From contig JADNRX010000047.1 of NCBI GenBank assembly GCA_015501595.1, forward strand, positions 124,001-188,000: a DNA stretch of 64,000 nt. Reading direction: 5' to 3'. Position 1 is the stretch's first letter, and each line of letters opens with the position of its first letter. The stretch is from Hymenopellis radicata (taxonomy: Eukaryota > Basidiomycota > Agaricomycetes > Agaricales > Physalacriaceae). This document shows positions 8,970-35,642 of this stretch, piece after piece. The position numbers and the translations under genes were made by a program. The notes below the pieces were generated by a model that was not told the DNA's origin, searched no databases, and worked only from the letters and a program-made list of their open reading frames with translations.

Positions 8970-9004
8970 CAGCTAATTGCAAATCGATAGGCCACTCCTG
9001 CTCA
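8970..9004 (+). repeat. Left terminal inverted repeat of the KDZ-type element
   Basis: It begins CAGCTAATTGCAAATCGATA and matches the reverse complement of 35608-35642 at 34 of 35 positions (A against G at 8994). Sequence similarity stops abruptly outside it on both sides, which is why the boundary is placed here. Confidence 0.8.
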
Positions 9005-9096
9005 AGACGTCGTTGGAGCGGAGTCTGAATTAGCTCATCAGCCGATCGTGCCGCCATAGCCAATTCAAAGTCCGCTCCAACGACGTGTTGAGCAGG
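8997..9096. repeat. Hairpin with ~39-bp arms at the left KDZ end
   Basis: 8997-9035 pairs with the reverse complement of 9058-9096 at about 35 of 39 positions (core GTCGTTGGAGCGGA), with a ~22-base loop. The right end of the element has no such hairpin at the same place, so it is either a small MITE inserted into the left terminal repeat or an asymmetric end structure. Confidence 0.75.
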
Positions 9097-9104
9097 CAGA
9101 ATGC

Positions 9105-9940
9105 AGCTGCTACAGCATGCCGGCTGGCAGTCGACTGTCAGTCGACTGCCAGCCGACTGCCACTGAATGGCCCTTCAGGCTTGTTGGAATACCCCTTCAG
9201 GCTCGTTGGAATCCCTCTTCACGCTCATTGGAATCCCTCTTCACGATCGTTGGAAGACAGGTTCACGACCTCTCCAAAGCACCTTCACCAGTACAGAATC
9301 ACCGTACAGTCTAACTGCAATACACCCTCATAACTGTTACAGTTATATTCATAGTGTTGCTGTCTCCATACTAGCCTCTAATCGTTGAATATCACTTCAC
9401 AACCACTCGAATGAGCGTTTATGAAGCTTCCACCTCCCGTTCACGGTATTTCCAGTTTACAGGTATCCCAGCTTTTCCGCTCCTCCTGTAGTGATGTTCC
9501 ACCTACCCTTCATGGCTCTTCCAGTATACCTTTAGGCACTTTCATTCTGATTTTCTTCAGCTCTCTTGTAGTACTTCTCGAATACCCTTACAGGACTCTT
9601 TGAATGCTCCTGTATCAGTATTCCTACCCAGCTATTCAGCAACTCCTGTAAGCCTTTTGGAATCAGCCTTCACTGATGCTTGATGCTCCTATAGGTATCT
9701 TCGTCATTACACCTTCACGTAGCTTCCAATTCTCCTGTAGTACTATTCAGCGACTCCTGTAAGCCTTTTACAAGCAGCCTTCAGTAACGCTTAATGCTCC
9801 TATAGGTATATTCACCATTACACCTTTACGTAGCTTCCAATTCTCCTATAGTACTTTTCAGCAATACTCTTTCATGTCTGTCTACGTACGTCAATGATAT
9901 GACTCATTGCTTACAAACTTTATTTTCCCACTCTCTCCTC
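9105..9940. repeat. Left subterminal repeat region, with two 111-bp tandem units
   Basis: CAGTCGACTG-type palindromes occur near 9126-9163, followed by repeated words of the form CTTCAnnn-TTGGAA (9170-9270). Two diverged tandem copies of 111 bp lie at 9637-9747 and 9748-9858, each beginning CAGC(A/G)ACTCCTGTAAGCC and containing TAGCTTCCAATTCTCCT. The region is AT-rich and non-coding, and probably holds transposase binding sites and the transposase promoter. Confidence 0.75.
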
Positions 9941-9948
9941 TTACCACT

Positions 9949-12189
9949 ATGCCTATTTCTATTCATGAATTCGCCTCAGCACTTGGAGATCAGCCATGCG
10001 ATATCCAGACTGCATCTCTCATGCTTTGTTTGCTCAAGCGAATCTGGAATCATCTACAAGCACAAAGCATAACAGATTCAGAATCTCTTCCTGACAACAT
10101 CATCGATTTCCTTCAACATTCTCTCAAACTAGAGCATTCACATACTATACAAACCCTTTGGATATCCCTTCGTCATTTGGTTCCTCAATGGGATATTTCA
10201 CCCTCATTCAATCAGGAGGTTGATGATTGTTTTCGACAATATGGAACACCATCAAATCTTGGTTCGTTCTTGACTTTCCTCATTCAACAGTACTCAGACT
10301 AATATTTACACCTTTTCAGCTGCTCATATGCTTTATCCTCCCTACACCCATTGTCAAAATGATCAGTGTAACAATCGAAAACTTGGAAAGCCGTCGCTCA
10401 GTGAAGCTCGCTTATATACACTTCATCGTGGTGTTCTTCCTATCTATAACGTCTCATATTACTGTCAAAGTAACTGCTTTTTGATTCTCTCTTGTTTATC
10501 ATTCTAACTTCATATATTCAGAGTGCTTTACACGCTATCATCCTACATATAGCGTCACCAATGCTTCCAAATCTAAAGAAGCTATACGTCATTTCTATCC
10601 CCAACAAGGTCCCTTCATTCATGTAAACAAGACGGTCTTTGTAGAAGATAGTTTGTGTCAGTTTTTTGAACAACAGATTTGTCATTCCCAGTGCGTCTTT
10701 CTCTATTGATTTTTATTCGCATTTTTTGATCAGGATCTGTAGCTCTTCTTCAACGATTCTTGCTCGTGTCTATAACCTCACTCAAGGCCGTATGGCCACT
10801 CCATTATCATCCAAGCTATCCCCTGAAATTACTCAGGATATTGTTCTTGAGGCCTTCTTTCTTCATGCTCTTCTTCGCCGTTGTCAGTACGATAATATCT
10901 TACTCTCTGTCCCTCATTGCGGTGATTAAGCCCATCGACTGGATGCAGCATTAGATGTAGCTAATCGACGTATGGCTGCCACTGGACAACCACAGTATGG
11001 TCATGCTTGTAATCACTGTATGAAGGTTGTTAAAGATGAGAACGGCAATCCTAAGGGTAAGTAGGATTAATTGAGCTATTCTCGTTCTTATCGCTTTTCA
11101 GGATTCATTCATGGTGGCGTGACCGATGGCGTAACACTTGGACATACATGCTGTCATGCACCATATTGTCAGAACGAACTTTCATCTGTTATCGATATTG
11201 CGAAACCCATCGAGCACTGGAGTCACAATGTATCATTTCTGGATGTTACGAACCCTGCGAGTCTCCCAATCTCACTTGTTCCACTCCTGAACATCGTCAA
11301 CAGGAGCACGACAAACGGTATCAACAGATCGAGAAATCTAAACGCAAAGATGAAGAGGACAGGCGACTTCAAAAAGATAACGTATCTACATCATCAGCTG
11401 GCAACAAGAAGAACAGAAAGAAGAGAGGGAAGGGCAAAAAGCATCAATCTGGCGATGGGGACTCTAATGACGATTCTCATCCTTTGGAAAATGCCAAGAT
11501 CAAGATCACTCGCAATTATACGCACAACGAGCAGCTCTTTATTTATTGCTGTGGTATGATTGTTTCACGAGCAACCTTCTATGTTGCAGAAGCCATTACT
11601 GCAGTTGGAGTACATTCTCTTCTTCTAACTTGTGCTTTTTCTAATCGATCTTCAGCAATTTATACAGCAAACATTTCCCCATCCTGCAGTTATTCCCAGT
11701 CACATCTTCTACGACAATGCATGCAATTTGCTCAAACATCTTCGTCGTCACCATAATCGCCATTTTGCCAACTGCAATCTTATCGTAGACGTGTTCCATT
11801 CTCACATTCATACCGATACGGACACATTCTGTCAACAAAACTGCATTCCCAAGCTTTTCCCTGAGCTGAAGACTGCAGATGGCAAATGGATCTTTAATAC
11901 CTCGGTGGCGGAACAAACAAACGTCTGGTTTGGCGCCTTTCAGCCAATGACACGTGAGATGTCTCTTGTTCGGTTAGGATCTTTTCTGTCCTATAACATG
12001 TACTCATTTTTGTTCAGTTACAACTTTTTTCTTGACGAAATGATTCGGCTCCGCAATGAATGGATGGTGCAGGAGCTTCAGACCAAGAACGCTCATCCAT
12101 GGATTCGTGATATTAATCGTATTATTGCGGACTATGATGAAGAGCACAACTCTCAGCAAGCAGAGAACGATATGGAGGTTGATATATAG
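9949..12189 (+). pseudogene. KDZ-family transposase with CxC5/CxC6 cysteine clusters
   Basis: Start is the ATG at 9949 (MPISIHEFASALG). Spliced exons give, in order, a helical N-terminus; a CxC5-like cluster (PPYTHCQNDQC ... YYCQ/KCFTRYH, then FIHVNKTVFVEDSL); a helical linker (LARVYNLTQGRMA); a CxC6-like cluster (HACNHCMKVV, HTCCHAPYCQ, YCETH, CIISGC, LTC); and the RNase H-fold catalytic region with YCCGMIVSRA, IFYDNACNLLKHL, VDVFHS and FNTSVAEQTNVWFG. Introns include 10262-10319, 10470-10521 and 11611-11655. Two lesions are visible: an in-frame TAA at 10927-10929, where a Gln codon is expected, and a one-base frameshift near 11185-11200 inside CxC6. I therefore call it a pseudogene, though the catalytic exon is intact. 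Its stop lies 10 bases from that of the TET/JBP gene facing it. Confidence 0.85.
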
Positions 12190-12199
12190 TCAAGTGTAC

Positions 12200-13889
12200 T
12201 TAGTATATAGGAAAGGCAGAAAGATTACGCTTCAAAAAAGCCTCTCGACCATATTCCTTCACTGTTGCCCCACCATTACGCATGCCATTCTCCACATAGC
12301 GAAACAAGCCACCAGCTGAATATAAAACAAAAGCAGCACGGATAACGTTATTCTGGATAATTGAAAGGTTACCATGGATAACCAAGGCGGATGGTAGGAG
12401 AATCAGGTTGCCTGGAGGGAACTCGATAATGTATCCCAAGTCCCAGAGGATCAAATGGCCTCCTTGTGTAGGGTCGTAGTCCCCTAACGCCCATACTGCA
12501 CAAAGTCCACGAGTGAGGTTCATACTATCTAGATGAAAGCGTGTCCAGCTGAATGGTGGAAAGTTGATATGACATGCGGCAAAGCAGCAATCATCGTAGA
12601 GGCGTGTAAGTGTTGGATCGTTCTCAATCACCGCATTGAGAGCGTTGTCGTATTCGGCCCATGTAGCAGGGAAGAAACGTTTCAGAGAGTCTAAGAACGG
12701 TTAACCTTGCAGCTCTATCATCCATAGATGGCGTACCTGAAGCAAATCGAGCCATTCCATGAAATATCTCCGTATCTAAGAGCTCTCGCAGTAATTCCTC
12801 TTCTCTTGGTGTATTCGAGAGCATTCCTGGTGCTCTACGACCAGTGCCTTGAGAAATTCCCATCCCTCTAGTCAAGTACATCCCTCTACGATTGATGCCA
12901 TCCCCAGAAATGAGCTCCAGCTCTTCTCTCACCACCGTCATATCATCAAGAATCTGAACTGATAGCTTGTCCCACTCCGGCTGCTTAGGTGCGCCGACCA
13001 GTACGGAACATAAGTGTTGATACTCGTCTACGATTCCCAATGTATCTTGCCTGTCGTACTAGTATTAGCGTCTGTCTGCATAGATATCCACGTCATGCTT
13101 ACCGTCCTTTCCACGAGACTAGCCTCATACCATTCGACTTGAACTGGGGAAGATCAAATATGGTGTAGGTTCGATCCTCCGGGGGGTACTGAGGACCCGT
13201 CCAAGTCAAAGGAGCTGGGAATCTTGTCGATTCAACTATTCCTTTTAACACTAATAGCACTCGTACCGTTTCTCCTGGATGTCGTGGCATGCTGAGGCAA
13301 GGACTTTGACTTCATGCTGCTTCCCAAGTTGGACGTACTCCAAAGCAGTACTTCACGCTCTATGCCAGTCAAGGATTCTATGCATTCCCAATAAGACACA
13401 GTTTGTATTCGTTTCCAGAACAACACACCTGATTCCCTCATCTCAACATCTTCCTTAGCCTTGCTCTGCGGATCCACATCCATATTATTTGCGTCCAGAT
13501 CCTGTGTTGGCTCTGGTTGCAGCCACATCGATCCAAGTATGGGAGAATCTGGCGGCGTGAACAAAGGAGATGGCGTTGGCGTAAATAGTGGTGAAAGTGG
13601 CTTTGGCAGCGGCGGCGGCATGTCCTTTAACTTTAAAGATTCCACACGTACGCTTCGACGCTTTGGCATCTGTGATCCTCGTACAGACAGAGAGAAGGAT
13701 CCTGTGGGGTTTGACAGAACAGTCGGAATGTTCAGAACTGCATCTCGTCGACGGTTGGATGATAGGAGAGCCTCTAGATTGGCGTTGCTTTGTAGAATCT
13801 TCATGGCTACACCAGTCATCAGTAAAATCATCCCGTAGAGAGCCAACAATTGCCTCACCAGTCCTTGAAGTCGCCTCTCAGATGACGGC
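12200..13889 (-). CDS. TET/JBP-type 2OG-Fe(II) oxygenase
   Basis: The last exon (12200-12690) carries the signature of the agaricomycete TET/JBP domain: FHLDSMNL (the iron-binding HxD), CAVWALGDYDP-GGHLILWDL, EFPPGNLILLPSALVIHGN (distal His) and VIRAAFVLYSAGGLFRYV (Arg for 2-oxoglutarate). These enzymes oxidise 5-methylcytosine. Introns 12691-12736 and 13051-13102 splice in frame to exons reading ...HGMARFAS and ...MRLVSWKGR. Farther upstream is a Ser/Pro-rich stretch (PPPLPKPLSPLFTPTPSPL). The exon junction near 13240-13330 is unclear and may be a frameshift. No ATG opens the longest frame; the first ATGs are near 13830-13855, so the start is uncertain. The gene is tail-to-tail with the transposase. 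Confidence 0.83.
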
Positions 13890-13899
13890 AAGCGATAAG

Positions 13900-15390
13900 G
13901 TTTACTAAGTCTTGATTTCCCCGCACACGGGGTGATCTGCGTGACCCACTGTCACCGTGGCTCACTCAGATCAACCACTACTACACGACGCGACACGCAT
14001 CAATTTTCTGCATCTCTTTTCCATTTCTTTCCTTTCTGTGCATGGACCAGGCCGCGTAAGCCCGCAGGAGCGGCTGCAAGACAACTCTGACACGGCTCTG
14101 GTGCTGCCTCCTCATCCGTGTCCGCCTCCAGTTGCCGCAACTTTCCTCAGCTTTGGGGCGATAGGGACATCTCCGAAAACATAGGAAAATATACCATAAG
14201 GACTTGGATCTTGGGCTTCAACGAGTGAGTAATTTTGCGTGACAAGCTTTGTTTCTCTGACCACTCTCGAATGTAGATCCAACGAGTCTGGACAATCCAA
14301 CATGCCACCTGATCACGCCGTAGACCAGTACACAGGGTGCCAGCGCCAGTACTAGTTCACGGCCCAAGGCAGTACCATCGTTGACGCGGACATCGACGAT
14401 GTATGGCACGTCCCAGGCACGTCCTGATCAACTTCTCATCCTATCCCGACTGGAATCTGTTCGTCCGGTGAGGAAAATCGATGCATATCCATCCTGGCAT
14501 ACTCGAACTCATTTAGCATATCATGAAGATCCCAGATAGTGACAAAACACATTCTACATCGCACTCGAGGACCAAACGCCCCAATCCAACCTCGGGCTCC
14601 TCAATCAACACCCAAATTCCTCCCCTCCCCGCTCCCATCAATGCCTCGACGGCCGTGAACCTCCTCCCACGTTTGAAAACATCCACCACCTCGACCTCCA
14701 GAATTACAGGATAGCCAGGGGATTGCCGGGCCCCGGACAGTATCACAGTATCATTGACCGGGACAGTTTGTTGACGACGACGGGAAGATCAAGACGTTTT
14801 AAGAGTCAAGGGAGATTTATATTGGTTTTTTGGCTTCCACCGTCGGGGCGTTACTCGGGAATCAGTAGAACGAGGCGTTTGGTGATTGCAAATTACAATA
14901 GGTTACAATGTAGGCTAGCAGTAGTAGAATGTAACGGTCATCGACTACAAGGGAGTAAGCACCCTGCACAAAGTTTGTGTTGTTAGCCCAGGACCTCAAA
15001 CAAGACGACGAGGACAGGACACAAGAACTAGAAGACTTACTGAGGGTGAGAGGCCTAGAGGCCATACAAACACATAAGTAGCGTCAAGTCGAAGGCACGT
15101 TAGACTATAGACAGGGTTTTCATTCAACAAGGAATTTGAACCAAGAAAACGAACGTACCGTGACCTGAGGCATCTCGCCTGTCATCCCGCCAGTCATCCA
15201 CAGGGAGCGCGCCGCCAAATGCGCCAAGTCAAACACGCGGCCGTCAACGGTGGTCGTGGTCTAGGGATCTTCGCAGTGATCTAGCTCAAAAGAAACCGCG
15301 TAGAGTCGTTGTCTGGGGTGCTCGTCAACCGACGCTCATCATTGGGGAACCTAACCCTATGGCATTCTCGCGCGAATGTCCTAGGGTTAG
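13900..15390. other. Unresolved stretch with possible gene fragments
   Basis: A possible spliced exon pair on the plus strand (14150-14340, with GTGAGT...GTAG between) and open frames on the minus strand (14270-14409 and 14513-14746) suggest remnants of a gene that I could not identify. A GCGTAAGCC hairpin motif lies at 14054-14075, similar to those in the inverted-repeat element, so part of this stretch may be a nested insertion. Nothing else is supported. Confidence 0.4.
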
Positions 15391-15401
15391 GGGCGAACAC
15401 A

Positions 15402-15960
15402 CCATTAAGGCACACACGTCCGCGACGTCGTGTAAGCCTGATAGTCCAACCCACGACGTTTTAGACGTCTCCCATTCCGACAAGTCCTCCATGTGGCGTG
15501 GCCTCTGTTGAGAGGGCTTGCGCGTTGTTGCATCCTCTGATCGCTTTGAGGTAGACGGTGGTCGCCCGCCCAGCGATGGCGGGCCACAGCGCTCCGAGTC
15601 CATTTATCTCGAATACCGCGCCAATCTTAGTGGCTGTCTGGATGAGGTATCGGGTCAATGCAGAATGTCGAGGTGTCGGACGGCGAGCGTGAGCATGTCT
15701 GTCGTTCATGTACAGCTGGAGTGTCTTATTCAGCAGAAAAAAAAGGATGCAATACATGCGCACCATTTAGGATGCACACGTCCACGACGTCGTGTCAGCC
15801 TCATGTTCCAACCCACGACGTTTGAGACGCCTCTGATGTCCAACCAGTCCCGATGTAGCGCCGCCTCTGTTGAAAGGGCTTACGCGGTCGGTTGCCAAGG
15901 CAACATCTCGTCCATCGGAGAGAGCGGGCGGGCCACAGAGCTACGAGCAGATGGTGGGAG
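15402..15960. repeat. Diverged direct repeat pair, ~200 bp each
   Basis: 15402-15610 and 15769-15960 share an ordered set of words: ACACACGTCC(G/A)CGACGTCGTGT, CCAACCCACGACGTTT, CCTCTGTTGA(G/A)AGGGCTT(G/A)CGCG and GGCGGGCCACAG-like. The second copy includes the exact GGCTTACGC motif (15877-15885). No coding potential is evident. They appear to be fragments of the same repeat family as the arms at 1-3927. Confidence 0.65.
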
Positions 15961-16128
15961 GAGACAAGAAGGTAAGAGCGTGGGACTATGACGCACTTCA
16001 ATGTCCGATCTGCAGAAATCGGACATCGAAGTGCGTCATCGCTCTCATCCTCGCACTACCACCTCTGACCATCTCGTCTCGCCTGGTTCTTGCGCGTTCC
16101 TGCGCCGAATCCCTCCACTCTTCGACGG

Positions 16129-18026
16129 CTGCCCTCTCCTGGACTCTGAGAGGGCAGCCTGGCCGTACGTCGTCGAGTCCCGCCGTCTGCGCCGCCGTCG
16201 CGCCCGCAACATCATACCATCCCATCCTCCTACCCACAACGACTTGTCCTCGCCCGTGTCTGGCTGGGATTTCCTCGTTCCTAGATTGATGCTCTCTCTG
16301 CATTGAGGAGAGGCCATTTCCGCCGTCGCCCATGACCCCGCGCATGTCGGCGCCGCCCTCGCGCCCGCCACCCAGCACCATCCCTCCAACACACTTGCTA
16401 TCGCCCATTTCGGGCTCAATCGTCCTCATTCTTTGAGTTCTGCCCTCTCCTACACTTGGAGAGGGCAGTCTCGCCCCCGTCTGAGCCCTCCCGGCCTTCA
16501 GCGCGGACGTCGCGCCTACTACCCCACCACTATTCCACCCTATCCTCAAAAGGACTCTTTCTCCTTCGCTTTTCAGCGCATTTCTGTGGTTCTTGGACTA
16601 CTGCCCTCTGCTAGACTTAGAGAGGGCAGTTCCGCCGTCGTTGAGCGCGTCGCGCACGTCTACGCCGACGTCGCTGCCACCACCACAGGCCCATCCCACC
16701 CTGTCCTCCCAGGGACTCGTTCTCAGCCGGTTCTCAACCGATTTCCTTCGGGTTTGGATGGCTGCCCTCTCCTACATCAAGAGAGGGCAGCCCCACTGCG
16801 TTTTGGAATTTTCGGCCATCAGAGCCGCCGTCGCGCTCGCCACCCCTCACGATCCCCCGCCCATTCTCCAAGTCTTAACGGTACGCTGCCATCTACCCCT
16901 CATATTCCGAACTTACTGATTTTATTGTCCATAGGCTCACACGACGTAGGACCACAGGTAAGTCATATCATCCTCATTGTCTCCATACTTATCAAGGTTT
17001 GCCAGTCCTGCCGCCGTCGTCCTCTTGCCGTCCGTACGACGACATTCCGGCGATTATTTCCTTTAGCGCTGTTATCCCACCCGGCACAAGCATCGACAAC
17101 TCGAAGAGATCATTGACTTTGTGCCGGTGAACACCAGTTTGGCTCTGCGCCGACTGATTCGGGGCATCTATGCGACGACGCGTGCTGGAAGATTATGTGG
17201 GACTTCCTTATGACATGGGTATGTCTGTGCACGTCTTCTTGTCTTCTCGAGGCTTAGCGCTTAGCTTTTGCCTGTAGACTTGAATTTAATTTTGTTGAAT
17301 TCGAACATGGTACCGGTACGCCATTAGATGATGTTTGTTCGATGTTGCTAACTGAGGGATTCGAAGGCTTGGCTTTATCGATGTTGTCTGTGGGGGGTGT
17401 TCGCTCCTTCTCTAAGACGATGTTGAAGAGAACTTCAATCACGATTCCCGCGACAAGTTGAATGTGCCAGTGACGACTTTCTTCTCTCATTTGTGTAAGT
17501 GTTGTCGTCGTTCTCCCTGACTTGATGATGGATTTTTCAAGCAGGTTAGACTTACAGAGGGCAGTGCCACTGTCAGTGAGCGTGTCGCGCGTGTCTACGC
17601 CGACGTCGCTGCCACCCTATCCTCCCAAGGACTCGTTGTCAGCCGGTTCTCAACCGATTGCCTTCGGGTTTGGATGGCTGCCCTCTCCTACATCAAGAGA
17701 CGGCAGCCCCACTGCGTTTTGGAATTGCCGGCGATCAGAGCCGCCGTCGCGCTCGCCACCCCTCACGATCGCCCACCCATTCTCCAAACGACTGTTTCTG
17801 CTCGTTTCTTGGCGGATTTCTCTGTTTCCTGGATCAAGGCCCTCTCCTACAGCTGGAGAGCGCAGCCCCACCACTGTTTGAACCGTCCCGACCTTCAGCC
17901 CGGACATCGCGCCCATCACCCCATCACTATTCCACCCTCTCCTCAAAAGCAGTCTTGCTCCTTCGTTTTTCAGCGGATTTTCTTCGTGTTGGGATGCCTG
18001 CCCTCTTCTCCATCAGGACAGTGCAG
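16129..18026. repeat. Array of CTGCCCTCT...AGAGGGCAG hairpins
   Basis: Perfect 9-bp arms with an 11-base loop occur at 16129-16157, 16440-16468, 16601-16629 and 16762-16790. Imperfect versions follow at 17678-17706, 17837-17865 and 17998-18026, and a half-site at 17546-17564. Three of the spacings are ~160 bp (16440, 16601, 16762, then again 17678, 17837, 17998). The sequence between hairpins is also repeated: for example TCAACCGATT and TTCGGGTTTGGATGGC precede copies at 16762 and 17678. It is therefore a diverged ~160-bp tandem repeat whose hairpin is the best kept part. Confidence 0.85.
17046..17480 (+). pseudogene. Unidentified gene fragment between repeat blocks
   Basis: Within the hairpin array there is a non-repeated stretch with open frames on the plus strand, reading EEIIDFVPVNTSLALRRLIRG near 17105 and, after an intron-like GTATGT...CTGTAG, LEFNFVEFEHGTGTPLDDVC near 17280. 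The low-repeat, codon-like composition suggests remnants of a protein gene. I do not recognise the family, and frames cannot be joined with certainty. Confidence 0.3.
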
Positions 18027-18311
18027 CTCCATTGTGTTTCTCCCGTTTGAAGTTTCCGCCTTGACTAAGTCAACGAGCGTTTAGAGCCTGTAGATACAGT
18101 AGAATAGTCATACTATTCTTTGCACAGCGGCGGATATATCCCGACCTCCGGGTTACTCCCGACAAAGTCGATGAGCGCAAGTTCTTTTTCCAGGGTACAG
18201 CCTGTAGCTTTTACAGTAGAATCATGTAGTAACGCAAGTGAATAATGATTTAGATGCTGTGACCCCTGTCTTCCCCCGCATCTTACCTTCTCCCCCATCT
18301 CATCCATCATC

Positions 18312-21300
18312 ATGCTGTCCCCCGCTGCGCCGCCTGCTCCCCTGGAAGGCGAGAACATCTTCAAGCACCACACAAATCGTGACACATACCTGCCCAAGTT
18401 CGTCGTGCGAGAGTGGCACCCTCTTCTGGTAGACGAGCTCAAACCATACCTCAAAAACGTATACGTCTATCGTGTGGATACATCCAAGATGTCGATGCGT
18501 GCATTTCGAGAATACGTCGTTAAGAATGTCAAAATTCCGCAGGGACCAGACTCAGAGATGCACGAGCTTGGTGTGTCTGCTGTCTCATATAGGTTACCAT
18601 TTGCTGATGCATGACAGGCCTGCTTGAACTAGTACCTGGGGATGTCGTGTTCGCTCGCGATATCAGGACTAATGACCCGCTCAAGGATGTTCTCCAGGTC
18701 GTAGTATCTGATTCGTACGTCATGAACTCACCTGGCTGGCCCCAACTGACGCCTGCGGGTAGTACTTTTGCGTTTCCGCCGGATGTTCTCGCCAAGCTGC
18801 AAAAACTCAAGGACGACATTTTGGGGTCTCGGGAGTCTCGGCATGATGGAAGTACCGCCTTCGAGAAGGCTGGCCGGGCGAATCCTGTTAGTGGCAAAGG
18901 ACGCTGCTACAGCTTGGGCATACAGACCCAGCGTACCCGAAATCTAGTCAATCCCGCCGCTGATGGCAAGTTTACTCAGAGAGTCGATCCCGCCCTCCAA
19001 ATGCGTGGTGAAATTGTCAAGGTACCTCTATCACTGCCCCTTTATTCTGAAGCGTTAATACTGGGCACCAGTTCTTTATTGAGGTCGGAGTGCGGGTCAT
19101 GCAGAAATACGCACCGCAGATCTTTGAACAGCTCAAGGCCAATCACGAACTCCACAATCTTCCAATGATCGGCCACTCCTTGAACTATTGTTTTGCTGGA
19201 GTACAGCTTAACATGGCTAATGCCGTCAGCTGGGAATCCCATATGTATCATGGTCTACTCACGATTAGTAGCTGATTGTTCTTCTTTAGGAGAAGGGCTT
19301 GGTCGGGAAATGCACTTCTTTGGGGGAGAGCATACTGATAAGAATGATTTTGACGCTGGTTTGAGTGGCATCTTCGCATCGCCAGATATCCCAAGCGATT
19401 ATGAAGGAGGTCGATTTCATTTCCTGGAACTCGGATGTTATATTCGTCTCTCCGGTACCGTCTGTGCTCTCTTCTCTGGGCTCCGCCATCATGGAGGCAC
19501 GCCTCCTCGAGCGCCGCGTGGTCAGCCCGTCGAGAAGTGGGCTCGTCGTCTTGTCATTGTGCTGTACCCTCCAGCGAGTCATGGTGAAGGTGCAGGAATA
19601 TACAATCTCTGCGCCGGAGGTAAACAGAATCCGGTACGTTTTACTCCAGAGTATGCGGACCCAGAGTACGTACTTTGAACATCCAGTTGTGATTGTTACT
19701 GAGATGTTTCGCAGGTTGGAGTCGCATGCTAAGCGATTATGGTCGACAGAAATGACATTCGCTGAGGATGGCCCGTTTATTATGCCCCAAGAGGCTCTCG
19801 TTCGATTCATGGGAAGAGCGACGCTTCAGATGGCTCTGTCATACTTCCGCCAACTTCCGCTGGGTTGGAAGGTGAACATCAACACCACCAAGTATCTCGA
19901 ATCCATCTCCTATGCTATAGAGGGTTCGCCTTCAGGCTCTCGGGCTACTCTTGAGCCTTGGCCACTAGCACCTTCTGTTCAAGGTCAGACACCTTCAGAG
20001 ACTCGTGATATTGGTACGCTCATCCTTATGCGTGGACACACCTGCTAATTAGATTCAGATACCGTATTACTACCTCCGCGTCTTCAAGTGTTGCGTGCCT
20101 TTGAGGAGTTTCGCTCCAATCAGTCTCGCTTCATTCCGTATGTCGTTGACAAGTCCTCCGATAATGTAAACATGGTCGATTCTCCAGGACTCTTAGGAGG
20201 TCGTCCAAAAAGTCAGTTACCTTTGTACATCTGCTGCACAGGAACTAATCTATGCTACGGTAGAGTATACCAGTACTACAACGAAGAAGCCACCTCGAGT
20301 CACATCCATAGGCTCAATTGGAATGCGACGAAGGCGATACTATGGTACTGTTGGTATGTAAACCTTATCAGCTTGCACGGTCTTTGATTGATGTGAGTAC
20401 ATAGTTCATGGGAAGGGTACTGTTCGAGCTTTGTTTAATATGTGGAATGTATGGCAAAAGCAAGAGCGTGGTAAGGCCCGGGAGCGTAAGCGTGCTGCAA
20501 AGAAGGCTACAATATTGGAGGAGGTGGAAGCTATCGTAGATCATTGTTTTGATCAAGAGGTATGTAACTGGAGTACTTTTCTTACCTGCTCAGCTAAAGG
20601 CTTACAGGGACGTATCACATATTATGTGCATTGGGCTGGTTATGACGAGGATGAAAACACTTGGGAACCTTTAGCTCATGTGTAGGTATTCCTTCTGATT
20701 CCTATCAGGAACTAACAGACCTTTTCAGTCTTGATGGGGCACGGACAACGCTAGAAGAATATCATGCTTCCGTATCTCTAATGCTCATCAATGATACGAC
20801 CGTCATTCCTATAGCAAACGAGACTTCATCAATGGAAGGCGCTGGTGATGCCGCTGCAGGTGATGATGCTGATACTATGATGCGACTTGAAGCTGACACT
20901 ACAAAAGGTTCTGCAGATCACGAGGCTATGATGGAAGGTGAAGATGCGAGGATGGGAGACAACAATGCAGGGATGGGAGGCGAGGACACAGGAATGGGAG
21001 GCGAGGATACGGGGATGGGAGGCCACCATGCAGGGATGGGAGAGGACGACGCAGAGATGGCAGGTGATGCAGAGATGGAAGGCGAAGACACCAGAATGAG
21101 AGGTGAAGACACTGTGATGAGAGGCCACAACGCCGCTATGGAGGGCGAGGACATCGGGATGGAAGGCGAGGATGTAGGGATGGAAGGTGATAGCGCTCCG
21201 ATGGGAGGTGAGAACGCTCCGATGGGAAGTGATGATGTCCCGATGGGTGATGATGCCATGATGGGAGGTACAGATGATGATACCAGCAGGGCAGCGGGAA

Positions 21301-25317: not shown

Positions 25318-25346
25318 TGTCGTAAGCATTATAGACTTTATATATG

Positions 25347-27958
25347 CTACTTAGGATCCGCTACATATAGGTCCTCTAGTTTTTTCCTTAACGTCTTGAC
25401 TCCCAAGGGAACTTTGGCTTCCAGCTCCTCTATGAAATGTCCATCATCTTGTATCGCCTTGATACCTCCCGCATCTTTGATAATCTCGCCACATCGAACA
25501 AGATGACCAATCCATTCCGCTTTACAGTTAATCATAGTAGCCCATGTAGCATAGGTGAACGTCTTAAGCTTGCTAGCTAGGAGTTTTATAAGCATGAGTT
25601 GAATAGCTGATCAATAACGAACCTCCAGTAGCATAAGCAGGACGTTCTGTTTCACGAATAGCCTGTTCGAGGAATACCGCATAGGAAAGCAAATTATCGA
25701 TGGGAAGGCCTTTGGTGCCATACTTGGCTTTGATTTCACCAAGTTCAAGATAGATATCGTTGGTGGCGTATTTCTGGCGAATAATCTCTGGACCGGTGGT
25801 ATGAGCTTGAGCAGCCTGCTTGCGAAGGGGTACCGTATCTCGAGAATGCTTCACTCGAGCTGTTCTTGTAGGATTAGCAGGAGGAGGGTCCGAGGCTACT
25901 TGAGAGGAGTGAATAATGTGTCGCTGAAGAAGAAATCGTCCTATAAAGGATGGCGTTCCTTCCACATTGTCGGCCACTCGATGAAACTGAAAAGACGGAG
26001 AGGTATTAGATATCCACCATTTCGTATCAGACACCTATGTATATCCTGGTTGTCCGCAATATTTAACGCCACATTGATCGCCACATTGTTGAAGAAGAGC
26101 AGGAAGTGTAGCGTAAACCGTAGGTTCCACGGTACGGTTTGCTTCCACATTGGCGTGAATGGCAAAAGGCGAGTGAGCTAAGAAGGATTGAATGGTAAAT
26201 ATTACACGAAATGAGGATACATACTTGTTTCTGAGAAACGTTCACTGACGCTCTTATCCCAAATCTTGATAAAGCCCATTGGACGAATGGGTAGTACTTG
26301 AGAGTCGAAAGGTAGATTACTTGGCCAAGCCATACGTGTAGCAAATGACGAGTCTTCCGATAATGAATACTGAGTTTCGACATCTCGAAAGGTGATTTTA
26401 ACGGTGCCTAAAAGTTTGTTCGTCATATCAACAGATAGATAGTACTGTGCACGTACAGTATAAGATTGCTTGTGTATCTGAAACACCTCCAGATTGTTGA
26501 TCTAAGCGATTCTCAGCAGCTCTTGCCTGTTGCTCTCTTGCTTTCACACGTTCTTCCTCCGCTGCCTGAGCTGCGTGCTGAGCCTCCTGGATACGTTGGG
26601 CTTCCATGCGTCTGGCTTCCTCCGCTGCCTGGACTGCACGCTGAGCCTCCTCGATACGCTGGGCTTCGTGCTGAGCCTCCTGGATACGTTGGGCTTCCAT
26701 GCGTCTGGCTTCCTCCGCTGCCTGAGCTGCACGCTGAGCCTCCTCCATACGCTGGGCTTCAATGCGTCGGGCTTCCTCTACTGCCTCAGCCTCCTCCGCC
26801 GCCTTGGCTGCGTGCTGAGCCTCCTGGATACGCTGGGCTTCCATGCGTCTGGCTTCCTCCGCTGCCTGAGCTGCACGCTGAGCCTCCTCGATACGCTGGG
26901 CTTCAATGCGTCGGGCTTCCTCTACTGCCTCAGCCTCCTCCGCCGCCTTGGCTGCGTGCTGAGCCTCCTGGATACGTTGGGCTTCCATGTGTCTGGCTTC
27001 CTCCGCTGCCTGGACTGCACGCTGAGCCTCCTCGATACGCTGGGCTTCCATGCGTCTGGCTTCCTCCGCTGCCTGGACTGCACGCTGAGCCTCCTCGATA
27101 CGCTGGGCTTCAATGCGTCGGGCTTCCTCTACTGCCTCAGCCTCCTCCGCCGCCTTGGCTGCGTGCTGAGCCTCCTGGATACGCTGGGCTTCCATGCGTC
27201 TGGCTTCCTCCGCTGCTTGAGCTGCGTGCTGAGCCTCCTGGATACGTTGGGCTTCCATGCGTCTGGCTTCCTCCGCTGCCTGAGCTGCACGCTGAGCCTC
27301 CTCGATACGCTGGGCTTCAATGCGTCGGGCTTCCTCTACTGCCTCAGCTTCCTCCGCCGCCTTGGCTGCATGCTGACCCTCCTCAATATGTTGGGCTTCC
27401 ATGCATCTAGCTTCCTCCGCCGCCTCAGCTTCCTCCACCGCTTTGGCTGCACGCTGGGTCTCCACAAGCTGGGCCTCCCCCATGTGCTGGGCTTCAATAT
27501 GTCTGACTTCCTCTGCTGCCTTCGCTGTACGCTCATGAGCCTCACTGCCTTTTGCTGCCTCTGCTGCCTCTGCTACTGGCTGAGCAGCCTGTTCGTTAAA
27601 TATCTAATAAAATTTAATATGATTGATTGATGAAATTTTAAAATAACGTACAGGAAGGTATCCTCTGGTATATAAATCATACAGCACTTGCTCACCCAAG
27701 CTGAGTACGCGCCAAAATTGGCCCAATGTTGCATTGCGAATCTTGTTGGAATCGCACTCAAGAAGAGTGTCTACAGATAAAGATGGAGTAGAGGTCGTGC
27801 GAGTGGAACATCTTCCAGTAACGCTCTCTGGTGGGACGGCAAGTTCCAGAAGTTCACCTCGTCGCTGTAGCGGAATTTCTCCTCTATAAAATGATAAGGA
27901 CGAATGAAATAGCTAAATTGAAGACGTACAATTGAATGGCTGTAAGCTTGAACCGCAT
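25347..27958 (-). CDS. Long Ala/Glu/Arg coiled-coil protein of the KDZ-type element
   Basis: The probable start is the ATG at 27956-27958 (MRFKLTAIQL, followed by an intron). A second exon reads CSTRTTSTPSLSVDTLLEC ... GEQVLYDLYTRGYLP. The central exon (about 26530-27600) is some 350 residues of tandem EAQRIEEAQRAAQAAEEARR-type repeats, predicted to form a long alpha-helical coiled coil. Downstream exons are non-repetitive (SVDMTNKLLGTVKITFRD, MGFIKIWDKSVSERF, PTVYATLPALLQQCGDQCG, KYGTKGLPIDNLLSYAVFLEQ) and end in a TAG at 25347. The family is not recognised. Such proteins can act in DNA or chromatin complexes, but nothing here proves it. The opposite strand also stays open through the repeats, which I treat as a shadow. 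Confidence 0.6.
26560..27590 (-). repeat. Minisatellite coding for the coiled coil
   Basis: Units of 42-69 bp alternate two modules, EAQRIQEAQHAA(K/Q)AAEE and EAVEEARRIEAQRIEEAQ. Some blocks of over 150 bp are nearly identical (for example around 26740-26880, 26860-26990 and 27080-27210), which indicates recent unequal exchange. Copy number is expected to vary. Confidence 0.88.
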
Positions 27959-28280
27959 ACTGAGAAAACTGGAACGTGATGGTATGAAGTTGATGTAGAG
28001 TGGCGATTGGAAATTTTGTGTAGCACGAAATTTATCATCGGCCGAATGGAAGAATATACAAGAATTAAAATTATAACGACTACTTAGAACGTGATTTATG
28101 CTGTTTAACGATGGGAGCCCACTTGCCCTCAGGATTTTTTCCAGCGGCGATTGCGTTGGAAACTAATATAGCAAAGTTCTCATCGTCGTTACGATATGCC
28201 CATGCCCGCTGCATCACGAAACAGCCTCTGGCCTCAGGATGACTCAAGTTCAAGGTCACAGGTATACCAAACTGGAGGCT

Positions 28281-31200
28281 CCTGAGCTAACTCCGAGTGC
28301 TCTGGGTCATGCTGAGTGGCCATGAGAAGCAAGCCGTGATGAATTCAACCTGAAGTAACTCTTAGTTAACTTGAAAGGACTTGGGATGCTGTGCTGGTGA
28401 GCAACATGCATCAAGTTTCGCGAGACTGCTTTGAGTGTGGCCATATCCAACCTGATGTCTTCAGCCAATCTAGAGCACCCTGAGAATTACAAGGAAGATA
28501 ACATAATTCACCAAGAGTCAATACAAACATCGCATCAGATTTTTCACTAAGGCGACACAATATGCAACAGTATATCAGTCATAGTGTACAGTGAGCCGAA
28601 AGATTTGACAACAGCTTTGAGGACGACAACAGGCAGTATATACAACCCAGGCATCGCACATCAAGGGTCCTGATACGAAGCCGTGAACAAGGATAAATCT
28701 ACGTGAGCGATAAAGTACTCGATATAGACCAAAATGATTCACTTAGTATCCCGCCGAGCTCGCTGTCAAGTCGTGAGAGAACCGAGCGTCTCGCCCTCCG
28801 AGTATAATGCTCTAGAACCGCCAGTTGCATCCTCGTCAAGTTCTTGAGTACCTCAACGACTGAAATAATGCTATACGTCAATCTGATGCTCCAACACGTG
28901 GAATCGCCACAATACCTTTGGCGGCATCGCAGCCAAACCCTTTCGCTGCTTTTTCGATGGCTTTCTGATCTGGTTCGGGATCGTACGTAGGCTCGAAAGT
29001 GCGAACAGCCTCGACTCCTGGCGAAAAGCGCTTAAGTACTGCACGATTGGTGGGATCGTTGTTGTACCAGAGCCTGTGGGAAACCTGACGTGTAGGTTGG
29101 GCTCTATTTGCAATATTAATTCAAGGAGCTAATGGCGCATATATAGACTTACATAGGCCGTTTGTGGCGCTGTAGGTGCAGTGGCCATAGGAGGCTGAGA
29201 CAAACACGTCAGAGAATGCCAGAAACTGGAATCACCTAACGTTTTCCTTCCAAAGGAGATGATTACGCGACAGCGGAGCGTACTAGGAATGATAAGATGT
29301 ACAAAATGACCAGCCGATGGGCCGACTGATGGAATAGGGAAGGCAGGCTGCGGCACGCCACCTTCAGAGTTCGAATACCCTCGGCCACTTACAACGAGCA
29401 GACGGAGAGCGCGGTGATCCCACGTCTTCCACGGGAATTTCCTTTCGAGCCAGAGAAAGGCGTCGTTACGCGACGGTCAGGTATCGCGGCGCAGCGACGT
29501 CGCGCCCACCATGACCGCCATGTTGGCCATCCTGTCGTCAAAGTGGGCATAGGACAGGTCCTCAGGGATCATGGTGGGCTCGATGAGCACCAGCGCAGCA
29601 TATGGGAGCTCAGAGAGCAGTATACCACGCGTGGTAAGCATCCTGTGCGTGCACACTTTAAATGACAGATGCGCAGAGACGAGGAAGAAACGCACATGGC
29701 CCCAGCGCCTGCTGAGTGGCCTAACGGAACGATGTGATGGCCCGCCATTTGTGGAGAGCGAACAAAAGCGGATACGGCTAGAGCCCAATCATAAATCGCT
29801 GTGTGGAATTAGATTTAGACGCGGTTAGAGCAAGGTTAGAGACGCACAAACACCTTCAGGTCTGTCAGACAGAGCAGACTAATTGAGGACATTCGTTCCA
29901 GTGTTGGCTCCCATTGTTCCTTGTCTGGAGAACGGCTGTTAGAGATCATGTTCGAGCTCCGGAGAGAGTACTGACGAGATCCAATGCAATGTGCGAGCAA
30001 GAAGGTGATACCGCAGACATTATTGCCCTGCGACGCGCCATAGGTATATCGTTTCGCGATCATCTTGAGACTGCCTTTCGACAATATGCCCTGTCGACAA
30101 TATGCCCTTGTGACTATCGAAGACGAAGGGAACACAGTGAAGGCGCATGGCGGGAAATGTGATGCTTGTCATCCAAGGACGCGAGTCTATATGTATAAGT
30201 GTGAAAGCCAGAGAACGGTTAACGGGAACTTGAAGGTTATAAACAGTCAAAGCCGTTCGTCCCCTTGACTCCACCCACTTCGGAAGCGGTACACATCAAC
30301 GTCTTCCTTTTGAATAGGCGCGTCCGGCAATAGCTGGGCTCGTCCAGCGGGGCCGCCGGGGCTTTTCAAGCCCGCGAATCCAGAATAAGCCAAGAAATGG
30401 AGTCAAAGTAAAGAATAATAATGCCTGGAATGATCTGCGTCCAAAAATCCAGTCATCGGGGCCAGGTGTCGAGAGATAATGGTGGTTGTGTGTGAATATC
30501 TACCACTAAAAGACGTCTCGATCACGGTTCGGATGACCGGTCCGAGTGGTTTTGGACCACTTGCACGGCGTCCAGCGTCGCGACGAAAGCGATTTGAACC
30601 TTCGTACATTGCGGAATTGATTCCTATGATCTTCTAGAGTATTTTATTTTTTGGGTTTTTTTTCGCTAGTGTGAAGATGATACTCGCTTCTTTTGGTGGG
30701 ACGCGGTATGTTGTATGTTGGACGGTAAGTCGGTCGGCTTCCTTTTCATCTCATATATTCAAGTACACTGCATACTACTACTGGGCATGTTTTAAGGTCT
30801 CTGCATCTCTCTGTTCATCGTCCATGGTGTATTGAACGACAACCGGATACCAGGGCCCGGCGATCCGAACAGTGATCAAGCACTGTTCGGAGTCGTCATC
30901 CTTACTCTTCAACCACCATCATCTGTTGTCTCGTCACCGCCATTCTCCCTAATATCGCCGTCTCTTGTCTGCTGGCTCGTCAGTCGGCCGCGTAAGCCCT
31001 GTCAAGACAGGCAGCAAAACCTTTACCGGCGTCGTCGTCGTGGGCAGTCCGCGTCACGAGCCCGCTAAAATCTGGATTGACAGGGCAAGGCCTAGGAGGG
31101 TGAATGCTATTTCGTCTGCGGTCGGGCAGCATTGCACGGTGCGTGCTCATTTTTGCTCATTGTCTTGGTGTTGAACAACGACGGTAGTCCCATGAGATTC

Positions 31201-32511
31201 TATGCGCCCACGACTACGACACGACACCCGAGCATAGGCTCACGTAACGCCAGGCCGACTTTGAGCAGGGCCCATGCTTCGGAGGTCATACCCCGTTGCG
31301 AGGTCTTCCCCGCTCGTACTCGTCTGGACAATTTACCGCCGCAAGCCCATATTCACCACCTCACCCGGCTAGAAATCTCTCCAGTCCAGCATACTGCCCT
31401 TAGCAAATGGTGCCACGTAGACATCACGTGTATGTTGGGTTTTGTTTCGTGTCCCCCATTATTCGGACTTGTTTTCTTACCATTACGACTCTTCTCATCC
31501 GTACTCCGAGCAACAGCGAGTCCGCCGCCGCGTAAGCCCTTCCAAGACAGGCAGCATTATTAATGCCGTCGCTGACGAGGTAGTCGACGTCAAGTTGAGC
31601 GTCCCCGAATGCGTTCTGCGAGAGCAGAAGCCGGAGGCATTGCTCTGCCGGCAGACGACATCGCATAGTGCGTTCTCACTTTTCAGTCTTATTCGTCACT
31701 GATGTGGTCTCAGCTACTCTGCAGTGTTGACAACGACTCTTTTCTCCCCGATATTCATCTTCAAGGTATGAAGTTGCCGCCACCATCTCACCTGCGCAGA
31801 GAATGCATCCACATAACCATAATTCTAGAACAACTGCGATGGAACTGAGCACTTGCTCCCAACACAAATCCTACCAGGACAACAACTACGACGGACAATG
31901 GCAATCGACCACGACGGCAAGGATTACACGTCAGCAAGAGCAGTCATCAACGACAGCATTGCTAACAACCGTGAAGTCGCTTACCAACAACAGCGCGGAC
32001 GACACTTATCAACGAGGATGACACCTATGACGAGCATTTGGGCGTTTCGCCCATGAAACGACGACGATGCCAACTGAACCACGCTTACTGGACAAGGAGG
32101 TCAGCCAAACACGAACGAATATAAATATGCCACTGATGAATAGTACTAGCACGCTCTCGTTGAACACCCCAATGTTCACGAAGACTCGCTTACATGTCTG
32201 TCAGTCGGAGATACTGCGGTACACTAATTTATGTATTGTTTTACTGTACCGAGGTTCTGTCTGTATATCGTGTTCTCGACAATTTATGTGATCCCTTTTC
32301 CCAATGTGTGCATCGAGAGATGCAATTGACCATATCTTGGAGTGGCATGAGTCAACTTAGACCTAGAATGAATGGACATTGGGACAGGTAGAGCTAACTT
32401 AAAGAGCTGTTGAGATGGCCTCAGTGTACTTGAAGCAAACTTGAGAGGGAGGTTCCCGCCGAACCTTCTCCAAAGTTGACTTTGCAACCTTCACCCCTCC
32501 AGTTACTCAGG
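28281..32511. mobile_element. 4.2-kb element inserted in the zinc-finger gene, related to the inverted-repeat arms
   Basis: The ends read CCTGAGCTAACTC (28281, plus strand) and CCTGAGTAACT (from 32511, minus strand), a short inverted repeat. Its right part (about 30960-32510) is a diverged copy of the family at 1-3927: shared words include GCCGCGTAAGCCCT, GCCAGGCCGAC(C/T)TTGAGCAGGG and GTGCCACGTAGA, and the tail is rich in GTTGACTT/AGTTAACT. The left part contains fragments of a host alpha/beta-hydrolase gene. No transposase was seen, so it is likely non-autonomous. A target duplication could not be defined. Confidence 0.72.
28870..30300 (-). pseudogene. Captured alpha/beta-hydrolase gene fragments
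   Basis: On the minus strand, exons separated by intron-like gaps read MIAKRYTYGASQGNNVCGITFLLAHCIG, then KEQWEPTLERM, then IYDWALAVSAFVRSPQ-GHHIVPLGHSAGAGAM (the GHSxG nucleophile elbow, near 29720-29760). Next come SELPYAALVLIEPTMIPED, a block around RRDTW and FPWKTWDHRALRLLV, and a C-terminal exon near 28880-29100. The order and spacing fit a fungal alpha/beta-hydrolase-fold protein of the peroxisomal lipase-like type. Introns are still present, so capture was at the DNA level. A 14-base repeat (GGGCATATTGTCGA, 30080-30115) shifts the frame near the start. I consider it a pseudogene inside the 4.2-kb element. Confidence 0.6.
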
Positions 32512-34699
32512 ACAGCCAGAGGTCTCAGAGTCAGCTTCAGCTACCTTAAGGCTTGGAACCAGTTTCCTGATGTGATGTTCAGATACTGTCTGCTTCTTAT
32601 ACTCGACACCCTTCATTACCTTAGAGAATGCCTTGCTTAACACCTGACCTGCGTCAAGGTGGGGCTGCATTTTCATGAAGTACTGCTGCATTTCACATGC
32701 GTAAGTATATGGAAATATCCTATATTTATATAAGATCAATGAAGTAGAATCCAAGAAGAAGAGACTTACGATTTGGAACGAGAGGATGTACGAGAATTAT
32801 TGGACGATGTTTTATGTGGCGTATTTTTTGGGAAAGGAATATTAGAGCTAATAAGAAACTATAAGCAACAGACGTAGATTTACAACTGGAAATACCTGAT
32901 AATTTGAATCTCATCATCAAAGACATCAGCCGATGCTGCAGTCGTCGACATAGAATCATCAAGTTTTCTACAATCTAAGTAAGTCAACGGTTGACTTCAG
33001 ATTAGTGATAGACTAACTCTTTTTTGATAGGTCGATTGTTGCCGAAAATCGGTTGAGTAAATTGTCTAAAATGCACGATGAGCAATGATAAGATAGATTA
33101 GCTAGGTATGTACTCTTTTTTAATAGGAGTAGAGTGCTGTTCGTCCTCAGAACCATCAGTAATCTCAAGGATAGATTCCATAGATCTAGAATAATGATCA
33201 GAAATGAGAACTGAAGACAATTGAGAGGAATATAAACTTACCGACTACGCTTTCTGGGCGATGATGTTGACGATGAAGCAGTTGGAAGTGCACTACTGGG
33301 GCTAGCGGCGGAGGGACATGAAGTACCTAAGAGGGATGCTGCACCTAAGACAACTGTTTGACCGTTCTTGACATTTTCGATTGGAGTGTCCTGCAGTACC
33401 CAACGATTGTCTTCGCCAACAGTGCAGAAGTGTTTGAGAATGGATAGCTTGAGAGAGGCAAGAAGAATATCTGCGTCTAAGGGTTGAAAACGAGGAAGAG
33501 TGTCGACCGTTGTCTTGAGACGATTGGGAGGTGTATCGTTCGTCTATTAAGAGAATAAGCGTAATTTTACTAGACTGAAGAAGGATAGAACTGACGTTAA
33601 ACCATAGTATGTTAACAATATGCTGAGCGGCACGAGCAAGCTTCTGACGAGAACTTTTTTCTGCAAGAGGAGAAGAGGGAGCAGAAAACGAATTGAGATG
33701 CTCCGCATAATACTTGCTGAGGTGCTTGAATGGCTGAGCTTGTGGAGTATTACGAGTAGATGAGGAGGGAGTAGATGGCGAAGCTCTGCTGGGTGTGCTA
33801 CTTTGAGAGGGTATTGAAGGTGAAGAGTCTGAACTTTGGCTAGAGCTGCCAGCTTTGAGTACTAAAATAAAATAGTAAGTAATAGTTATAATGAGACGAT
33901 ATAACTCACATTTATCACGATGTTGCTCAAGAGCAGTACGATGGTCAGGAATGCAGCATAGTGGTTGTTCCGTCAGCGCCACTTTATCGACACAACATCG
34001 TTGACATGCCCCATATGTGCATCCCATACGTGAAGTGCGCTTCTGACAATGTGGACATTTGCTGGTAGTAGCAGTTGGCAATGAGTGAGGGGTGGGGTTG
34101 GAAGTAGCGGAGGAGGAGGGATGAGCGGAGGAGGAGGGATGAGCGAAGGAGGGTGGAGTCCAACACTAAGAATAATGTGAGATAAAATCAAAATGAATAA
34201 GGCGAAGAGTACATTTGGGGAAGCCCATGAAGCCCAATGTGAGCGTGCCCAGTGCTGAGCATTACCACGCATTATGAAGCGCTCATCTTCAAGCCACCAG
34301 TACCCATTACATTTTTCTTGATTGCTTCGTGCATGAGGAGCATCAAAGCTAGGATTGGCATTGTTAGTGCACTACAGAGTGATGAGCGGCGGTTCGCATA
34401 TAAGAGATACAGATAGCTTGCCTTGACAAAGCACCCGCCGGCGTTTAGAGGATTTCGACCATTGCCGACACAGTGCTGCTTGTCGATGATAAAGCCAGAG
34501 GAACAATGAGGGCACGGTTGACCAGGTATAACAGCAGAGATGATGGGTGCAGGCGGCGTGGGTGACGCAGACATAAATCCCCCGTTGAGCGTCGCAGTCG
34601 TGATGAAAAGACAACTGGTGGAAGGAGTGACATTTCAGCCACACTTACAGAACTATACAGTTGCAACATGTGTGACAGGTTTTGGCTCTGAAGGTGCAT

Positions 34700-35607
34700 T
34701 TGAATGACTGTGTAGGCGACTTCTCCTTCATGATCAAACGAAGTACCATTCCCAACGTGGAAGATACATGATCGAGTAAACTACAAGTGGAACACACCCA
34801 AAGGAGCAATCAGATATGTCTGAAGGGGTACTCTAATGAATCTGTACGAGTAGTGGCTGAGTCTCCTAAAGGAGAGTTCTAACACACTGAAAGGACTAGT
34901 CTAAGGCCTATGAAGGAGTCGTGGAATAGACTTACAGCAGTGTTGGAAAGGGCGCATAAGTGTAGTAGAAATTGAGCGGTGAGCAGCCATGAAGGAGCAA
35001 TGGATTACACGTAAAGGGTTATACAAGACGCGTGAAGGAGTACTGGTGGGCACCTACATGAAAAATGAGTTTGAATATACATGCAGGAGTGATTGAATGA
35101 ATGGTAGGCTGGGATTGATCCTGAAGGTGCTATTGAATATCCTTGTAGGAGTGTTCGAGAACTCCTGTAGGGAAAGTGGTCAGTAAATAGCAGCCGCTTG
35201 TGAGGGGGTGATGGAACGCACCTAGAGGATCATTGGAATAGCCCTTTAAGAGTAGTCCAATAACGCTTCACGTACATTCCGGGAGATGTCGGCGGCAGTC
35301 GCAGGCTGGCTCTAAAGGATCATTGGAACACCCCTTTAAGAGTAGTCCAATAACCCTTCACGTACATTCCGGGAGATGTCGGCGGCAGTCGCAGGCTGGC
35401 TCTAAAGGATCATTGGAACACCCCTTTAAGAGTAGTCCAATAACCCTTCACGTACATTCCGGGACATGTCGGCCGCAGTCGCAGCCTGGCCCAGGGCCCA
35501 GCTGGCAGTCGTTCTGCAGCTGCAGTCGAACAGTACTGCAGGTGCAGTCGGCGGCAGTCGACTGGCAGTCGACTGGCAGTCGACGATGCAGTAACGCCGG
35601 CGTTCTC
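34700..35607. repeat. Right subterminal repeat region, with three 90-bp tandem units
   Basis: Repeated words TGAAGGAG-TGGAAT and CTACAGGAG-like mirror those at 9170-9860 on the opposite strand. Three tandem units of exactly 90 bp begin at 35221, 35311 and 35401, each containing AGGATCATTGGAA, AGTAGTCCAATAAC and TTCACGTACATTCCGGGA. CAGTCGACTG palindromes occupy 35550-35585. The region is non-coding. Confidence 0.8.
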
Positions 35608-35642
35608 TGAGCAGGAGCGGCCTATCGATTTGCAATTAGCTG
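35608..35642 (-). repeat. Right terminal inverted repeat of the KDZ-type element
   Basis: This is the reverse complement of 8970-9004 with one mismatch. Similarity ends immediately outside, before GAAAGCCCTTTC. Confidence 0.8.

Follow-up and report, generated by a model that had tools for sequence, protein, structure and literature searches.

We analysed a 64,000-nucleotide stretch of the Hymenopellis radicata genome (hereafter the window; contig C818:124001-188000), and searched the whole assembly of 75.5 Mb in 1,405 contigs for related sequences. The window holds a transposon of 26,511 bp at positions 9097-35607, or about 22.15 kb without a nested insert, which carries six genes and lies inside a miniature inverted-repeat transposable element (MITE). 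From left to right the genes encode a putative transposase with CxC5 and CxC6 regions (9949-12189, + strand, six-exon model), a TET/JBP-like oxygenase (12200-13831, − strand, 5′ exons uncertain), a chromodomain protein with an HxD...H part resembling 2-oxoglutarate oxygenases (18312-23244, + strand), a RING-like protein (24330-25317, + strand), a coiled-coil protein with a repetitive middle (25347-27900, − strand, 5′ end uncertain) and a GRF-like or zinc-binding protein (33098-34574, − strand, uncertain model).

The most conspicuous repeats at the locus are not the ends of this transposon. Two inverted 35-bp sequences (8970-9004 and 35608-35642) pair at 34 of 35 bases (97%), and the first 24 bases of the repeat gave two matches in the window and none in 100 shuffles. 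A sequence-only reading of the window had taken these repeats for the ends of an element at 8970-35642, and had rightly noted the palindrome (8997-9035/9058-9096) and mirrored subterminal repeats. When the genome was searched for the repeat's first 22 bases, allowing up to three mismatches, 24 places were found, two of which are the window's own and 12 of which form six pairs bounding units of about 290-350 bases; the remaining 10, two of them 19.5 kb apart on C807, had no short-distance partner in this search. Units of that size are too small for six genes, so the 35-bp repeats are not confirmed as the ends of the element. The repeat is instead scattered in the genome apart from the genes, as the end of a MITE that served as target. 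By eye, each of the six short MITEs has identical two bases on both sides (TA in five, GA in one), and GA likewise stands on both sides of the MITE in the window (8968-8969 and 35643-35644). When the window flanks are joined without 9097-35607, their alignment to an intact MITE is continuous across the junction; this, together with the sequence TGAGCAGG at both junctions (9089-9096 and 35608-35615), identifies 9097-35607 as the transposon. The larger element thus sits within a MITE with 35-bp ends and 2-bp duplications. The left piece of this target MITE, which takes in the left arm and the first part of the right one, lies at 8970-9096 (+ strand) and its right end at 35608-35642 (− strand), and it has undergone an internal deletion. 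Of the six short units, the one closest to it is the intact MITE at L032:774-1083. At L032:458-1083 (C1073) there are two MITEs, one from each of two subfamilies, with 7 bases between them.

Used as queries, the element's first 324 bases gave at least 15 matches and its last 408 at least 10, several of which are parts of one copy. Such searches stop at the proposed ends; the proof of the boundaries lies in the flanks outside. In the junctions read (nine left and four right, with one more right) the outside sequence differs from that of the window, and the change falls at the bases answering to 9097 and 35607. The flanks of the C609 and C479 copies resemble each other, as do those of the C1002 and C402 copies. 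An 8-bp duplication is perfect in five of the six copies with both ends read: TGAGCAGG in the window, GATTGAAT for a copy on C476/C1104, TCTAAGTA on C713, CAGAATCG on C402 and GGTTGAGT on C873. The C713 and C873 copies are about 2.05 kb long. We also see two mini copies of the large transposon, 62 bp long (C402:10315-10376 and C1002:7260-7321), which hold little beyond its two ends.

The copy on C476/C1104 (copy 2) runs from position 92467 of C476 to the contig end, and on C1104 from 25213 down to 11043. It matches window positions 9097-10603, 10602-11083, 11082-18400 and 18200-23649, and also 26806-28211 (95%), 32573-33963 (100%) and 33959-35607, so that five of the six genes are seen in it. 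The window and copy 2 differ at 22 of 9,202 aligned bases, with 8 further gaps (99.8% identity), and a blastn comparison of the 1,500 bases flanking copy 2 on each side with the window gave no match. The presence of two copies at unrelated sites, each with an 8-bp duplication, indicates that the element moves as a unit. Thirteen of the 22 differences, which were scored over window positions 9097-16650 and 33959-35607, are transitions at sites that read CpG in one copy or the other; set against the 9.8% of window bases that lie in CpG, this gives a binomial p of 1.7e-8 with sites taken as independent. Such a bias is expected if the copies carried 5-methylcytosine (5mC), and suggests that they did so in the past.

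Each copy has also been damaged separately. Copy 2 lacks window positions 28212-32572, a nested insert of 4,361 bp with CATCA..TGATG ends and a 2-bp TG duplication, recognised against the empty site L054. This sequence is a later insertion and not part of the original element. Its ends and duplication are those given for PlavakaB (CATCA..TGATG, 2-3-bp duplications) in the available part of Kojima 2025 (PMC12730594). In copy 2, in turn, the transposase gene has received two inserts, 1.07 kb and 9.4 kb long, the latter with the same type of ends as the nested insert, and the GRF-like gene, as judged from the gene model, one of 9.7 kb. The transposase gene of the window carries a single in-frame stop and a single frameshift, neither found in copy 2, and the window copy is accordingly predicted to encode no intact transposase. 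As each copy is free of the other's lesions, the damage postdates their separation. The 9.7-kb insert (C1104:12731-22458; L026, L027, L068) has terminal inverted repeats (TIRs) of the form CTGTA(G/A)CGTTTCGACCGT and a TA duplication. It contains an open reading frame (ORF) close to DDE_1 that narrowly misses Pfam's cut-off (1.8e-4), and at 21726-22085 it matches TET. Classification as an LTR-like (long terminal repeat) element was rejected because its ends show TIRs; from its sequence it is possibly a TET-bearing pogo-like element, of a lineage outside the 11 listed in the part of PMC12730594 available.

Turning to the proteins, the CxC5/CxC6 protein has strong Pfam matches to CxC5 (1.8e-25) and CxC6 (6.4e-17), and contains D..D..E-like motifs (VTDG, YDNACN / DVFHSHIH, AEQTN) that are also found on contig C813. 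The TET/JBP assignment made by the sequence-only reading is borne out by a homolog. The window protein itself matches Pfam Tet_JBP weakly (E 0.03, below Pfam's cut-off) and has 18 homologs; H, D and H are invariant in 17 of 17, and seven of these 17 match Tet_JBP. Structure prediction was applied to the homolog P0001, whose predicted fold resembles CcTET, NgTET and TET2, the 11 best rows all being TET. Going by this prediction, the window gene probably encodes a TET/JBP-type oxygenase. The window frame reads HLD and 17 of 17 homologs have HxD, not the HxE that replaces it in the PE type. At CcTET positions 331 and 337 the AG type has Gly/Ser and Asp respectively; by an ungapped count from HxD, the window frame would have Asn and Cys there (types as described in the accessible text of PMC12730594). 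Comparison of the TET protein and the TET alignment with solved structures by sequence gave nothing useful, and an E 0.21 match of the TET search to a bacterial B chain was dismissed as chance. The genome holds a large TET expansion, with at least 65 rows of TET-like matches across many contigs.

The chromodomain protein has a Chromo match at 1.2e-13, and P0019 is the annotated copy-2 version of it, with a different C-terminus. Among the best 8,000 candidates scored from 5.8 billion proteins, this annotated copy alone was found. The part of the protein that had been called an oxygenase at first sight has the HxD...H motif and may be a second oxygenase. The RING-like gene was recognised by its cysteine pattern and by joins made by eye, and has relatives at the same place in other elements; the coiled-coil protein has relatives of its C-terminal part, and the GRF-like gene also has relatives. 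All three are recognisable as genes, yet none of their proteins belongs to a Pfam family at cut-off, and their names were assigned by eye. An NCBIfam scan of five of the proteins found nothing.

Protein searches of the same genome revealed diverged elements that keep the order transposase>, <TET, chromodomain protein>, RING-like>, <coiled-coil, <GRF-like. The TET search scored 95 of 100 candidates and the chromodomain-protein search 41 of 61, and the others scored all. The order is complete on C506, with the transposase at 74545-76712 (+), TET at 76745-76951 (−), the chromodomain protein at 84624-87600 (+), the RING-like protein at 89847-90176 (+), the coiled-coil protein at 90504-90818 (−) and the GRF-like protein at 93298-93582 (−). 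It is also complete, in reverse, on C191 (transposase 57634-55467, TET 54138-55434, chromodomain protein 42143-38816, RING-like 36937-36608, coiled-coil 35966-36280, GRF-like 33129-33323). Partial versions are seen on C841, which has the first four genes and ends at 38572, and on C813, where five genes lie within 8.2 kb and the chromodomain protein is missing from the matches. The coiled-coil gene was not found on C841, though the spacing on C506 would put it before the contig end. Fragments of the set occur on C176 (chromodomain protein and RING-like) and C504 (TET and chromodomain protein). Single protein matches on C506, C191, C841 and C813 have 26-73% identity; for the coiled-coil protein, C506 and C191 give weak matches (E 1.4e-4). 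The left ends of the C506 and C191 elements, GAGAACGCC, are identical at 250 of 250 bases and have different flanks. On this comparison of sequences, the five other genes are part of the element and have long been passed on together with the transposase gene. The sequence-only reading had thus recognised the repeats and the six genes, and its proposal that the set travels as one unit is upheld both by the second copy with its own 8-bp duplication and by the order kept in relatives. It went wrong in placing the ends at the 35-bp repeats. It was incomplete in overlooking the 4.36-kb later insert and in naming a KDZ transposase, the protein being of the CxC5/CxC6 group with no match to Pfam's KDZ core.

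We regard it as likely that 9097-35607 is a large DNA transposon, inserted in a MITE with an 8-bp duplication, which moves by cut and paste through its CxC5/CxC6 protein and carries a long-inherited kit whose TET and chromodomain proteins act against silencing. The CxC5/CxC6 protein would most likely be the transposase, with catalysis and cut-and-paste mode both presumptive. The TET enzyme would most likely oxidise the element's 5mC, and the chromodomain protein would be drawn to silenced chromatin or a methylated histone. Acting together, the two could counter methylation-based silencing and so give the element time for transcription and movement. The functions suggested for the RING-like, coiled-coil and GRF-like proteins are putative throughout.

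Several observations weigh against this interpretation. The duplication at the C1002 copy is imperfect (6/8). The terminal sequences of the element (9097-9124, + strand, and 35580-35607, − strand) pair at 16 of 28 bases, which makes them weak repeats; among 20,000 pairs drawn at random from within the element, 4 were as good. Copy 2 is split over two contigs, which we joined by their sequence and by the 8-bp duplication that both carry. Window positions 23650-26805 (3.2 kb, with the RING-like gene and part of the coiled-coil gene) were not seen in copy 2, where the search over this gap scored 39 of 564 candidates and the coiled-coil and RING-like protein searches scored all; the segment falls between two contig ends, which accounts for the RING-like gene being unseen there. 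A right-end pattern built from the left 8-bp flanks of the C506 and C191 elements gave 18 matches against 23 in the control, none of them on either contig. The Pfam KDZ core was not matched by the whole protein to E 0.5 or by core pieces to E 10, in searches where HMMER filters lose weak matches. For the candidate second oxygenase, a profile placed HxD, GG and H in register with the TET alignment at E 0.44, which is not significant. Finally, transposase matches occur on 24 contigs, of which six also show a TET match at a distance of up to 1 kb. The other 18 are absent from the matches for any further cargo gene; on two of them, C501 and C517, a TET match lies more than 10 kb from the transposase match. 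These 18 contigs imply that the kit marks one branch only.

An unlikely but not far-fetched alternative is that the kit serves another role, such as targeting methylated heterochromatin or changing host gene control. Chromodomain proteins also steer the integration of some elements. The CpG-transition bias, which suggests that the copies carried 5mC, speaks for the anti-silencing role instead, and Kojima proposes this same role for TET-bearing transposons (PMC12730594, in the part available). We give rather less credence to the idea that the CxC5/CxC6 protein does no more than bind DNA in an accessory role and that a KDZ or other transposase encoded elsewhere moves the element. The missing KDZ core match would fit this, as would the breakage of the gene in both copies (the stop and frameshift of the window copy, the inserts of copy 2) and the CxC5/CxC6 ORFs of Pleurotus, which have no KDZ transposase nearby and for which help from Copia was proposed (PMC7641404, in the text available). 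Against it, the D..D..E-like motifs recur on C813, no other transposase candidate was recognised among the six genes, and the lesions of one copy are absent from the other. It is improbable, too, that the five genes besides the transposase gene were captured long ago and ride along as neutral passengers, of no benefit to the element. The kit's function is indeed inferred, and the coding sequence is partly of low complexity, but passengers would be expected to decay, and order and orientation are kept on C506, C191, C841 and C813, where the proteins are 26-73% identical. That the element is 8970-35642 with the 35-bp repeats as its TIRs can hardly be maintained, since, despite the near-perfect pairing of these repeats, the GA on their outer sides and two ends of this type facing each other 19.5 kb apart at C807:36946-56483 (L021, L022; long ORFs between, by eye), they flank six short units elsewhere, the other large-element copies have different sequence outside the bases answering to 9097 and 35607, and the 8-bp repeat is located inside the MITE ends.

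KDZ transposases with CxC clusters, expansions of TET/JBP genes in fungi and the association between them were reportedly described by Iyer et al. 2014. The window transposase has a KDZ-associated cysteine cluster (CxC5/CxC6) without a Pfam match to the KDZ core. Large TIR elements named KDZ1-KDZ3 have been seen to move in Cryptococcus neoformans, with duplications of 8 bp (KDZ1) or 4-8 bp (KDZ2 and KDZ3); as far as the available portion of that paper shows, they differ from the window element in length (about 9-11 kb), in their 139-241-bp TIRs and in combining CxC1 with a KDZ core (PMC12810828). TET-bearing transposons comprise 11 lineages, those of mushrooms including Kyakuja and Zisupton (Kojima 2025, PMC12730594; this and the following comparisons draw on part of the paper). 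The TET-bearing Kyakuja and Zisupton of Agaricomycetes are, like the window element, mushroom DNA transposons with a TET/JBP gene. The duplications made by Zisupton are 8 bp long, like those of the window element, and Zisupton has TIRs; the ends seen here pair at 16 of 28 bases. TET-bearing Kyakuja is unlike the window element in having a 7-bp duplication and CA..TG ends with no TIR, compared with 8 bp and CAGAATG..GTTCTC. In the accessible text, neither is credited with chromodomain, RING or GRF cargo or with a CxC5/CxC6 transposase. We did not find this six-gene set in the parts available of the literature on fungal TET and KDZ transposons (PMC12730594, PMC7641404, PMC12810828, PMC8290104 and PMC6431247, with Iyer et al. 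2014 not covered). The element is probably a new form of TET-bearing DNA transposon, with a conserved kit to which we ascribe an anti-silencing role.

In sporeless Pleurotus ostreatus, a 6,792-bp CxC5/CxC6 DNA lies in MSH4, with an ORF of 739 aa and a similar 660-aa ORF beside the gene; no KDZ transposase was near, and movement was ascribed to Copia (PMC7641404, seen in part, as for the comparison that follows). Like the window element it is multi-copy inserted DNA with a CxC5/CxC6 ORF. It is unlike it in that terminal repeats and target duplications are not described, and no dioxygenase appears in the main text. By analogy, the ends and duplications of the window element may offer an alternative to Copia for the Pleurotus insert, which may be of the same lineage. 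It is possible, though we lean slightly against it, that CxC5/CxC6 proteins in general are transposases of a separate DNA-transposon lineage, to which the movable CxC5/CxC6 DNA of further mushrooms, with the Pleurotus insert, belongs and one branch of which co-evolved with a six-gene chromatin kit that keeps the element open within silenced chromatin. If true, the kit would consist of a DNA oxygenase, a second oxygenase tied to a chromodomain reader, a RING-like protein and two further factors. Single TET genes on transposons are already known; a multi-gene set whose order diverged elements share would be an answer to silencing that is complete in itself. The window element would also supply ends and an 8-bp duplication for CxC5/CxC6 DNA, whose movement stayed open in oyster mushrooms (PMC7641404, available part).

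Within the transposon, the left end is followed by subterminal repeats at 9121-9267, first of the GCAGTCGACTG type and then of 22-bp units. On the right there are 90-bp tandem repeats at 35222-35490 and GCAGTCGACTG repeats at 35544-35584. Scans of the window for tRNA and Rfam families gave 0 matches. Dispersed inverted repeats, GGCTGCCCTCTCC, lie at 16129-17708, between the TET and chromodomain genes, and the DNA between these two genes has relatives on several contigs.

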